Assembly: GCA_030018135.1 (NCBI GenBank)
Contig: JASEGJ010000009.1
Span: 1 to 37,718 of the forward strand
Direction: 5' to 3'
Source: Candidatus Hodarchaeaceae archaeon
GTDB lineage: Archaea > Hadarchaeota > Hadarchaeia > Hadarchaeales > Hadarchaeaceae
DNA: 37,718 nucleotides
Below are positions 30,881 through 34,327 of the stretch, piece by piece (the first letter of the stretch is position 1; each line of letters starts with the position of its first letter). The notes beneath the pieces were generated by a model. The model had not been told where the DNA came from. It saw nothing but the letters and a program-made list of their open reading frames with translations, and searched no databases. Position numbers and translations under genes: made by a program.

Positions 30881-31555
30881 ATGGAGATTGTCTACGAGGG
30901 CAAGACCAAGCGCATCTTGCACGCCGGGGAGCGCATCATCCTGCAGTTTAAGGATGCCGTGACCGGCGATGCCGCGGGCAACGTCGATCCGGGCGGAAAT
31001 TTCATCGTTGGAAGTGTGAAGGGGAAAGGCGCTGCATCCGCAAAGGTAGCCGCCCACTTTTTCAAAATCTTAGGCGATGCGGGAGTTGACACGCATTTTT
31101 GTGGCGTGCGCTCGGAAACGGAGGTAGAGGTCCTTCTAGCGGCGAGAATCCCGCTTGAGGTAGTTTATCGTGCGAAGGCGTACGGAAGCTTTCTCACCAG
31201 ATATCGCAACCATGTGGCGCCGATGTCGTCGCTCGATATAGTTGAATTCAACCTCAAGGATGACGCAATCGGCGATCCACTCATCACGCCCCAAGCCGTG
31301 GTTAAGCTTGGAATTGCGGATGCGGGCGAACTTGAACGGATGGAAGCCGTGACTCGCAAAGTTGCCCTACTCGTGGCGAAATCGCTCCTCGATCTCGGTC
31401 TTGAGTTGGTCGACATGAAGCTTGAGTTCGGGCGCGTCGGCGGCAAACTGTTGGTGGTCGATGAGCTGAGCGGCGACACGATGCGCATCTACGACTCGGC
31501 AGAAAAAAAGTTATTAAATCAGGTAGAGTTGGCCCGCAAACTTGGTCTTATTTAA
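30881..31555 (+). CDS. purC: phosphoribosylaminoimidazole-succinocarboxamide synthase
   Basis: SAICAR synthetase, an ATP-dependent step of purine synthesis joining CAIR and aspartate. The 224-residue length is typical of the short form. It begins YEGKTKRI, has the ATP/CAIR-binding VVYRAKAYGSFLTRY and ends with VDMKLEFGR and VDELSGDTMRIYD. The ATG follows the AOR stop by 4 bases, with GAGGTAA as SD, so it may be co-transcribed with AOR though functionally unrelated. Its 3' end overlaps the convergent proteasome gene by 8 bp. Confidence 0.95.
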   Translation: MEIVYEGKTKRILHAGERIILQFKDAVTGDAAGNVDPGGNFIVGSVKGKGAASAKVAAHFFKILGDAGVDTHFCGVRSETEVEVLLAARIPLEVVYRAKAYGSFLTRYRNHVAPMSSLDIVEFNLKDDAIGDPLITPQAVVKLGIADAGELERMEAVTRKVALLVAKSLLDLGLELVDMKLEFGRVGGKLLVVDELSGDTMRIYDSAEKKLLNQVELARKLGLI

Positions 31556-32159
31556 TGAGATTCTCCGCCTCTTCCTCTGAAAGCTCGCGGTAGCCCTTTT
31601 CGTCGATCGTCGCAACAACCACTTTATCTCCGGTTGCCGCATCCCGTTCGATTGCGGTCCTGATCGACTGCGCCGCCAGCTTGAGCCCATCGCTGAGTTT
31701 CATGTCGTCGCGATAGTTTTGCTCGAGGACGCCGTAAGCAATCGTCGAACCTGTGCCAGCGCTCGCGAACTTCTCCTCCTCAATCTTGCCCCCTATCGGG
31801 TCGAGGAAGAACAGACGAGGACCATCGCCATCGACGCCGGATAGGATGCCCGCCACGATGTATGGAAACATGCGGCGATTGTGCAAAAGGTTGGCCGCTA
31901 TTTGTGCCAAGCTCTTGGTTGAAATCGGTCGATCGTGGTTAAGCCTGTAGAGGTTCGCCTCAGTTTTTAGCAGGTTCATCAGGCTCTGAACATCGCCGGA
32001 GCTGCCCGATATCGCCGCGCCTATTCGCTCCTCCAGCTGGAATATCTTGCGCACGCGCTTGCTGAGCACCAAATAGTAGGCCGCCCCTCTGGTATCGGAG
32101 GCCAACGCGATGCCGTCCTTGCATCTCACGCCGACGACTGTGCCCGTAAAACCATACAT
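31548..32159 (-). CDS. psmB: proteasome beta subunit lacking Thr1 (probably inactive)
   Basis: Beta-type 20S proteasome subunit, 203 residues from the ATG at 32159. The body is plainly beta: AISGSSGDVQSLMNLLKTEA, RMFPYIVAGILSG, GTGSTIAYGVLEQNY and ERDAATGD. Aligned without gaps to the Thermoplasma enzyme, Asp17 (ASDTRG), Lys33 (RKIFQ), Ser129 and Asp166 equivalents are kept. Position 1, however, is Gly in MYGFTGTVVGVRCKDG, and there is no propeptide longer than five residues. The neighbouring Thr is at -1. An active partner subunit should exist elsewhere. A TATA box lies 32 bp before the ATG. Unrelated convergent neighbour: purC. Confidence 0.9.
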   Translation of the reverse strand: MYGFTGTVVGVRCKDGIALASDTRGAAYYLVLSKRVRKIFQLEERIGAAISGSSGDVQSLMNLLKTEANLYRLNHDRPISTKSLAQIAANLLHNRRMFPYIVAGILSGVDGDGPRLFFLDPIGGKIEEEKFASAGTGSTIAYGVLEQNYRDDMKLSDGLKLAAQSIRTAIERDAATGDKVVVATIDEKGYRELSEEEAENLIK

Positions 32160-32187
32160 GGTAACCAAGCTTACTCTGGAAAACTAC

Positions 32188-32194
32188 TATAAAA
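32188..32194 (-). promoter_or_regulatory. TATA box of psmB
   Basis: Minus-strand TTTTATA is centred 32 bp upstream of the ATG. It predicts a leader of about 5 nt and excludes the TTG at 32168 as a start. Confidence 0.6.
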
Positions 32195-32196
32195 CT

Positions 32197-33603
32197 TCAT
32201 CGGCGCCCGATCATAAAAATTGCTGCCGCAATTATCGCGCAGACGATCGTCGAAACGATAATAAACGGCAATATGTCCTCAAGTTTTTCCCACAGCTCTT
32301 CGGATGGAGCTGCCGGAAGCGTGACGCTTATCAGCATCTGGTCCTCCGCCAAAAAGGTCCCGTATGGGCACTCGTAGGTTATCCTCGCCTTCAGAGCGCT
32401 GTTTTCAACGCTTTTCTTGACTCTAACATCAAAGCTCACCCGCTGATGCGCGCCGGCCCCCAATCCACCTATGCTTTCAGCTTGCGGTACTTCGATGTAG
32501 GTCGCGTCGGCCACTAGTTCTATCTTTACATCTGTGACGGCCTGCTTGCCGACGTTGTTGACGAGAACCGAGAACGTCCAAATGTCGCCTCGCATCGAGG
32601 GCTCTGCGACGAGCTTTGGCTCGACTGCCACCTCGCGCGTTATTTTGCCGCTCTTGAGAAAAATCTCGCAATTTGCGGGGGAGCCGACTATTACGCGGTA
32701 GTCCACCCTGTAGCCCCCAGGAGGGCTGATATGGCTGTCCCTAACCATATTGGTGCCGTCGCTGACGGCGTGGATGATGTGGTCGGGGCTAAGCTCGCAA
32801 AACAAACCAACCCCGAGCGGCCAGATGAGGTCGACTGGGACCCAACCATGACCAGGCAGATAAATGATCGAAAATGCGTGGCCCATTCTCTCAGGGTCTG
32901 TTTCAAGCTCCTGCTTATAACCGTAGCAAGCCACGAATTTTGCGGGTATGCCCGCCGCGCGGCATAGCGCGATGAACAGATTAGTGAACTCGGTGCAATC
33001 ACCGTTGCGGTGCCGATATGCCCAGAGCGCGCCGTGCTCCTCGATCTGCTCTCTGTATTCCAAATAATCTCTCACGAAATCAAAGATTCGTTTAGCCTTG
33101 TAGTAGATGTTCGGTTGACCGTCCGTGAGTTCACACGCCTTGGCCTGAATCTCGGGCGCCTCGCTTTCCCATAGGTGATCGATTTGCGATGTGTACCCAA
33201 ACTCCATCGGGACAAAGTTCTCTATGGAATCCTCATCAAGGGGGCGCCGATCCACGTAATCGACTTTAACTGTCTGGGTGATGGTGATGGTTCTGCTCTC
33301 GCCTGCGGAAATATCGCCCAAGGAAACTAACAGCACACGATTGTCTTCCGTGCTTAGGATTTCCCCGATTGGCGAAATATCGGCGGCCAACACCTGTTGA
33401 CTTGCCCAACCGGACCATTCCTTAAAAATGTGGACAGTTGCCACAACGTCGATGGCAATACCCGGCCCATTGTTCTTCACCTCGTATGTCATTACGGCCG
33501 TGTAAACGACCGATTTCGTCGCGGTCGAAGCTGAAACGGGCTGGACAAGTAGTAGGAATAGAATCAATCCGAATATGATGGGTCTATGCAGACGAACCCC
33601 CAA
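32197..33603 (-). CDS. secreted, membrane-anchored transglutaminase-like protein
   Basis: About 468 residues. A signal peptide (RPIIFGLILFLLLVQPVSAS) is followed by a beta-sandwich region. A transglutaminase-like domain follows, with the triad Cys in RNGDCTEFTNLF (about 203), His in MGHAFSI (about 242) and Asp in GWVPVDLIW (about 258). A second beta-sandwich (VNNVGKQAVTDVKIELV) precedes a C-terminal membrane helix ending FMIGRR. It is probably an extracytoplasmic protease or cross-linking enzyme anchored at its C terminus. The track start 64 codons upstream overlaps the divergent gene. The TTG at 33603, just before the signal peptide, is preferred but not certain. Confidence 0.82.
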   Translation of the reverse strand: MGVRLHRPIIFGLILFLLLVQPVSASTATKSVVYTAVMTYEVKNNGPGIAIDVVATVHIFKEWSGWASQQVLAADISPIGEILSTEDNRVLLVSLGDISAGESRTITITQTVKVDYVDRRPLDEDSIENFVPMEFGYTSQIDHLWESEAPEIQAKACELTDGQPNIYYKAKRIFDFVRDYLEYREQIEEHGALWAYRHRNGDCTEFTNLFIALCRAAGIPAKFVACYGYKQELETDPERMGHAFSIIYLPGHGWVPVDLIWPLGVGLFCELSPDHIIHAVSDGTNMVRDSHISPPGGYRVDYRVIVGSPANCEIFLKSGKITREVAVEPKLVAEPSMRGDIWTFSVLVNNVGKQAVTDVKIELVADATYIEVPQAESIGGLGAGAHQRVSFDVRVKKSVENSALKARITYECPYGTFLAEDQMLISVTLPAAPSEELWEKLEDILPFIIVSTIVCAIIAAAIFMIGRR

Positions 33604-33619
33604 CGCCTTTCGTTTTCGC

Positions 33620-33628
33620 TTTATAAAT
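33620..33628 (+). promoter_or_regulatory. palindromic TATA box between divergent genes
   Basis: TTTATAAAT reads as TATA on both strands. It is well placed for the OB-fold gene (GTG about 35 bp downstream). On the minus strand it lies only about 21 bp from the transglutaminase TTG, so that gene may use the TTATAA near 33675 or a start further in. Confidence 0.5.
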
Positions 33629-33658
33629 CGCCCGCTGCCAACTTGGCGGCGGGGTGCC

Positions 33659-34327
33659 GTGTCCGAGAAACTTATAACTAAGTTGAGCCTGGCCTGCTCG
33701 CTAACGGGTCTCTTGTCGTTATATGCGGCCGCCATACAAATGCGCCCTACCATAATCCCGATCGCTAGTTTAAACGACGAGTTCCTAGGCCTCAAAGTGA
33801 TGATCTCCGGCCAGGTGATCGACTTACGAGAGCATGTGGACGGTCACCTGTTCCTGAAGCTTAAGGATGAATCGGGCGGCGTGATGTCCGTGCCGGTATT
33901 CGCTGGGGTGCGGTCGCAACTTGGGGAGCCGATCGAGTTACTAGACGCCGTGCAGGTCACCGGATTGGTGAAGAAGTACCGCGATGAGCTGGAGGTAATT
34001 CCGGACAAGGCGAGCGACCTGCGCATCGTGCACGCTCCAGCCACGCGGATCTCGAGTTTAAATGCAGAGCAAATCGGCGAGCTCGTCAAAGTCGAGGGCA
34101 TAATCATAGAGCGGGAGATCGTCGGCAAGGGCAGCCTCATTTTAACGTTGCGCGAGGACGGCCATGAGCTGCCGGTCTTCGTGCCGGCGCCGGTGGTCAA
34201 AAATGGGTTCCCCGAGGTGCACGTGGGTTACCTCGTGCGCATCGATGGTTGGCTCCAACTCTACAACGATCAAATTGAACTCCAACTCAAGAACGCGAAT
34301 CACATCCGCGTGATCGAGGCCGCGTGA
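33659..34327 (+). CDS. membrane-anchored protein with two OB-fold-like domains
   Basis: 222 residues from GTG 33659, which has GGGGTG just upstream. One N-terminal membrane helix (about 8-28, LSLACSLTGLLSLYAAAIQ) follows a basic cap, so the rest should face outside. Two beta-rich repeats follow, each like a nucleic-acid-type OB fold: VMISGQVIDLREHVDGHLFLKLKD and later VKVEGIIIEREIVGKGSLILTLRE. I do not know the function; ligand could be nucleic acid, glycan or protein. The TGA overlaps the ATG of the permease gene (TGATG), implying joint synthesis. Confidence 0.75.
   Translation: MSEKLITKLSLACSLTGLLSLYAAAIQMRPTIIPIASLNDEFLGLKVMISGQVIDLREHVDGHLFLKLKDESGGVMSVPVFAGVRSQLGEPIELLDAVQVTGLVKKYRDELEVIPDKASDLRIVHAPATRISSLNAEQIGELVKVEGIIIEREIVGKGSLILTLREDGHELPVFVPAPVVKNGFPEVHVGYLVRIDGWLQLYNDQIELQLKNANHIRVIEAA

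Follow-up and report, generated by a model that had tools for sequence, protein, structure and literature searches.

Inactive beta subunits of the proteasome are generally described as a hallmark of eukaryotes, and eukaryotic beta3, for example, is unprocessed and inactive. In archaea, for their part, genomes with two or three alpha or beta subunits are common, and the purpose of these subunits is mostly unknown (PMC13022661). A close described counterpart to the subunit considered here comes from Sulfolobus acidocaldarius, where a core built from alpha and the beta subunit Saci0662 is inert and becomes active only once a further beta subunit, Saci0909, has joined it at a lower ratio (PMC4569737). 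All active proteasome subunits have Thr1, Lys33 and Asp or Glu17 in common, and the T1C exchange inactivates them (PMC4792962, which is also our source for the mechanistic roles of these residues and of Ser129 and Asp166). Among reconstituted archaeal proteasomes with an inactive beta subunit, Sulfolobus is the one example that we found.

Hadarchaeota are archaea of the deep subsurface and hot springs. In full-text searches that covered few subscription papers, which limits any claim of novelty, we encountered no report of a dead beta subunit in a Hadarchaeota proteasome, and the literature searched likewise held no biochemistry or proteomics of any Hadarchaeota proteasome. The window (the whole stretch of DNA analysed, 37,718 nucleotides) is contig 45 of a Hadarchaeota MAG of 1.1 Mb and 93% completeness, and it encodes a protein, beginning MYGFTGTVVGVRCKDGIALASDTRG..., that the initial annotation had read as a proteasome beta subunit with Gly in place of the catalytic Thr1 (Table 1). 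The Pfam Proteasome profile (PF00227) places it firmly in the superfamily (3.8e-52; 177 bits, cut-off 22.4). A fold model, which had been proposed as a check, gave a confident proteasome fold (AlphaFold2; pLDDT 89.7, pTM 0.89) in which strand S1 comprises residues 7-12; the top Foldseek matches of this model are the Archaeoglobus, Thermoplasma and S. acidocaldarius Saci0662 beta subunits, with a TM score of 0.90 to the Archaeoglobus subunit and of 0.92-0.93 (target-normalised) to Saci0662.

Table 1. Features of the beta subunit gene and its neighbours, in window coordinates.
Feature	Position	Strand	Remarks
Predicted non-catalytic proteasome beta subunit, CDS	31548..32159	-	203 aa + stop; ATG at 32159, stop codon at 31548-31550; protein MYGFTGTVVGVRCKDG
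N-terminal tail MYGFT, positions -5 to -1, predicted unprocessed	32145..32159	-	start Met equidistant in 21/21 orthologues; residue -1 is Thr, Ser, Ala or Gln
Gly codon, position 1, site of catalytic Thr1	32142..32144	-	alignments
Thr7 codon (position 2), beginning of strand S1	32139..32141	-	alignment and model
Asp22 codon, Asp17 of mature enzyme	32094..32096	-	invariant
Lys38 codon, Lys33 of mature enzyme	32046..32048	-	invariant
Thr136 codon, at the place of Ser129	31752..31754	-	Thr in 20/21 orthologues
TATA-like box TTTTATAG	32187..32194	-	~30 bases 5' of ATG; similar box in most orthologues
purC	30881-31555	+	convergent with the beta subunit gene
Transglutaminase-core, DUF11/CARDB membrane-type protein	32197-33795	-	directly upstream of the beta subunit gene

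In the numbering of the Thermoplasma beta subunit, the protein has Gly1, Thr2, Val3, Val4, Gly5, Asp17, Lys33, Gly47, Thr129, Asp166 and Thr169. The alignment is free of gaps, with Gly at 1, Thr at 2 and both Asp17 and Lys33 in register; the open reading frame and the register originally proposed both stand. The protein has the fold and length of canonical archaeal beta subunits (TIGR03634; that on contig C13 of the same genome, for example), together with their Asp17, Lys33, Gly47 and Asp166, but it lacks Ser129, Thr1 and a cleavable propeptide with Gly(-1) as its last residue. Its PF00227 match begins at profile position 5, versus 2 to 4 (mostly 3) for the canonical beta subunits of relatives, and its score against the archaeal proteasome beta equivalog TIGR03634 (216.8 bits, matched from model position 3) falls below the cut-off of 224; the canonical subunit on C13 scores 237 bits. 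Thr at -1 and the start Met at -5 leave nearly no propeptide, as had been claimed, and upstream of the ATG the reading frame is open for only about 8 more codons. The TATA box invoked in favour of this N terminus is also there: TTTTATA lies some 30-35 bases ahead of the ATG, and most of the 21 orthologues described below have a comparable A/T box at about equal distance. As for the neighbourhood, the gene and purC overlap by 8 bases at their ends and this convergent pair recurs in relatives, and in most relatives (loci L034-L047) the transglutaminase-core gene, which has the same orientation, lies directly upstream; the whole order is common to many of them.

The profile search found three PF00227 genes in the MAG, namely an alpha subunit (C11), a canonical beta subunit (C13) and the window beta subunit. 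The canonical subunit reads LEG|TTTIG, which bears out the prediction of a second psmB with a TTTVG-like N terminus, and the PAN ATPase is encoded as well (600 bits). The alpha gene adjoins what we take to be SBDS-like and Rrp4-like genes, the canonical beta gene is followed by what is presumably a KH/beta-CASP nuclease-like gene, and the window gene sits at a locus apart from both. As in the Saci0662-type family, a beta subunit without Thr1 shares its genome with an active one.

Orthologues of the window subunit occur in 21 of 27 Hadarchaeales genomes. Both beta subunits are present in all ten genomes of at least 90% completeness, and the six without the Gly1 subunit are 76-89% complete; the sole Hadarchaeota genome outside Hadarchaeales has alpha and an active beta subunit only, with no Gly1 subunit. 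Invariant throughout the 21 orthologues are the start Met at -5, Phe at -2, Gly1, Thr2, Val4, Gly5, Asp17, Lys33, Gly47, Asp166 and Thr169, in support of the original reading of a non-processed subunit devoid of Thr1. For comparison we sampled 73 Thr1-type beta subunits, 15 of them the active subunits of Hadarchaeota and 58 from elsewhere. Position 1 is Gly in every orthologue versus Thr in 15/15 and 58/58 of these; position 129 is Thr in all orthologues but one versus Ser in 15/15 and 58/58. Thr3, Ala27, Thr44, Val49 and Pro132, conserved in active subunits, are altered in the orthologues too. Pairwise dN/dS values (NG86) among the orthologues are 0.05-0.17, which shows that selection maintains the gene, and we conclude from these comparisons that it encodes a retained, functional protein with a broken nucleophile. 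Chance, assembly error and frameshift are excluded by the recurrence of Gly1 and the start Met in 21 independent genomes, and a pseudogene is rejected on the number of orthologues and their dN/dS.

Overall, we believe that the window subunit is very probably an unprocessed, catalytically dead structural subunit of the 20S core that stands beside the active beta subunit in a mixed ring. The sequences themselves show the fold, the loss of Thr1 and Ser129, the retention of the rest of the site, the co-occurrence with an active subunit and the purifying selection; its incorporation into the same particle as the active subunit, the stoichiometry and its role there we infer, and a mixed ring with few active sites would have its experimental precedent in Sulfolobus. 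The protein would be expressed from its own promoter and without a propeptide, would be unable to process itself, since Gly stands in place of Thr at position 1, and, with the start Met at -5 in every orthologue, would have nothing to process. Most likely it is built into the inner beta rings together with the LEG|TTTIG subunit, which would leave fewer than 14 active sites, and its role would be in assembly, stability, contact with the alpha ring or the shape of the chamber. It would probably be a structural filler next to an active partner, much like the inactive subunits of Sulfolobus and human cells. Against such a dead subunit speaks the retention of Lys33, Asp17, Gly47 and Asp166, a pattern not expected from pure relaxation, and also the lack of the gene in six of the 27 genomes, all of them below 90% completeness. 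At the same time, the retained residues may be structural, and the inactive eukaryotic beta3 also keeps Asp17 and Lys33.

Regardless of the exact role, the origin of this subunit has to be considered together with the Thr1-less beta subunits of other archaea. A second beta subunit in which position 1 is Ala, or in rare cases Gly or Ser, is present in Thermoproteota (L121, L139, L141, L143, L149, L151, L153, L154, L157, L158, L162, L165, L166, L169, L171, L177) and in many Asgard genomes (part of L185-L203), all in one strongly supported clade that is apparently an ancient non-catalytic family. Among 35 such subunits, with phyla assigned from gene sets, 31 have Ala at position 1, 3 have Gly and 1 has Ser. 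Two of the Gly1 members, MSSLPGTVLGI (L143) and FIGGTVVGI (L201), resemble the window subunit, but the group differs from it in clade in the best trees and mostly has Glu17 (25/35) and Ser169 (33/35). In a beta tree computed with positions 1-4 left out, the 29 Thr1-less Thermoproteota and Asgard subunits included form one clade (100/99), whereas the Hadarchaeota subunits stand outside it as a clade of their own (100/100) that adjoins the active beta subunit of Hadarchaeota, in a placement that is unsupported (14/75). The initial annotation had likened the protein to the non-processed subunits of Thermoproteota; the likeness holds for the replacement of Thr1, but not for descent in this tree, and the host belongs to Hadarchaeota, with Hadesarchaea/Hadarchaeum as its nearest named relatives.

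The mixed ring of Hadarchaeota may have arisen independently of those in Thermoproteota/Asgard and eukaryotes, through duplication of a beta gene and loss of one codon at the Thr1 site in one copy, and we regard this as an evenly balanced proposition. Thr169 and Asp17 agree with the active beta subunit of Hadarchaeota, and the active subunits of WYZ-LMO6-like members read FTG|TTTVG versus FTGTVVG in the Gly1 subunit, which together make a one-codon deletion after duplication plausible. A single origin, with the Hadarchaeota subunit an orthologue of the ancient Thermoproteota/Asgard family, inherited vertically or transferred, seems to us less likely, though a serious contender. The two groups share Phe35, Leu27, the loss of Pro132 and the loss of Ser129 (in about half of the Thermoproteota/Asgard clade), and joining them in one clade is not rejected by the AU test, either with the first sequence set (p 0.34-0.47) or with the set of the tree above (p 0.18). 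Against it, the best trees separate two well-supported clades, the joined topology has a log-likelihood 26 lower, and the residues at 169 and 17 side with the active subunit of Hadarchaeota. The free tree search on the first set missed a better tree, one that joins the Gly1 clade to the active Hadarchaeota subunit, and single tree placements are therefore not to be trusted.

The remaining alternatives concern function. The subunit could form a homomeric ring of its own, or enter an alternative, inactive particle with a regulatory task, instead of a mixed ring; its own promoter and separate locus would suit this, and the Sulfolobus particle of alpha and Saci0662 does assemble without Saci0909 (PMC4569737). 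We consider it improbable, since both Sulfolobus beta subunits co-assembled in the same study and a core composed entirely of dead subunits has no obvious use.

Somewhat more doubtful still is a cryptic active subunit, cut between Gly6 and Thr7, with S1 one residue shorter and Thr7 serving as nucleophile with Lys33 and Asp17. The invariant Gly-Thr pair does resemble a Gly(-1)|Thr1 junction, the one-codon deletion considered above could have produced it from FTG|TTTVG, and Lys33, Asp17, Gly47 and Asp166 are in place. But Thr2 is also invariant in the sampled Thr1-type subunits, so that no catalytic role is required to explain its conservation; Ser129 is lost; and in the AlphaFold2 model Thr7 starts strand S1. 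Saci0662 resembles the window subunit (~38% identity) as a second beta subunit encoded alongside a single alpha and a single catalytic beta subunit, as a member of a family that, as sampled, has no Thr at 1, and in its short N-terminal tail and its Thr2, Lys33 and Asp166; it differs in belonging to a family that forms a separate clade in the tree and mostly has Ala1 and Glu17 as opposed to Gly1 and Asp17. An equivalent threonine has been named in Saci0662, and the truncated protein with alpha was without activity (PMC4569737). The Saci0662 chain in PDB 6z46 starts M-TAIG, and in the nearest homologues surveyed that Thr occupies canonical position 2 and follows an Ala, Gly or Ser. The inert construct thus appears to start at the homologue of Thr7, which argues against Thr7 as a nucleophile. 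Judged from these family homologues, the absence of Thr1 from its family probably explains why Saci0662 is inert, and the threonine that has been taken for its Thr1 is probably Thr2. The suggestion that an inserted Val preserves Thr5 as nucleophile can be dismissed: Thr5 exists in the window protein, but two orthologues have Ser there, four have Ala and one has Gln, and a gap would be needed where the ungapped alignment already places Asp17 and Lys33.

A dead subunit in a mixed ring also invites comparison with eukaryotic beta3 (PSMB3/Pup3), which, as aligned for the human protein, likewise has Gly at 1 with Asp17 and Lys33 in register (MSIMSYNGGAVMAM), but occupies one of seven fixed positions in the eukaryotic ring. 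The window protein matches eukaryotic beta3 with E about 1e-21 versus 1e-45 for archaeal beta subunits, and with similarity this distant the resemblance is probably convergence. Thus, the likely function of the Hadarchaeota subunit is one already known from Sulfolobus and eukaryotes; what is new is the lineage and the fixation of Gly1, and probably also a separate origin. If that origin is true, the Hadarchaeota mixed ring would represent a third, separate invention of a division of labour between dead and active beta subunits. In this context, a dead beta subunit fixed in another archaeal phylum, probably by a route of its own, suggests that fewer active sites per 20S particle have been favoured repeatedly, and the uncomplicated two-beta systems of Hadarchaeota lend themselves to testing that idea.

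Elsewhere among the archaea, no late-starting PF00227 match was seen in 40 genomes taken as Halobacteriota or in 46 taken as Thermococci, as judged by profile start positions with few sequences read. Two Thermoproteota genomes (L160, L163), with 4-5 PF00227 genes, encode as their third beta subunit an extra Thr1 protein that starts almost at Thr1 itself (MTTIVAI and VTTIVGL), with virtually no propeptide.
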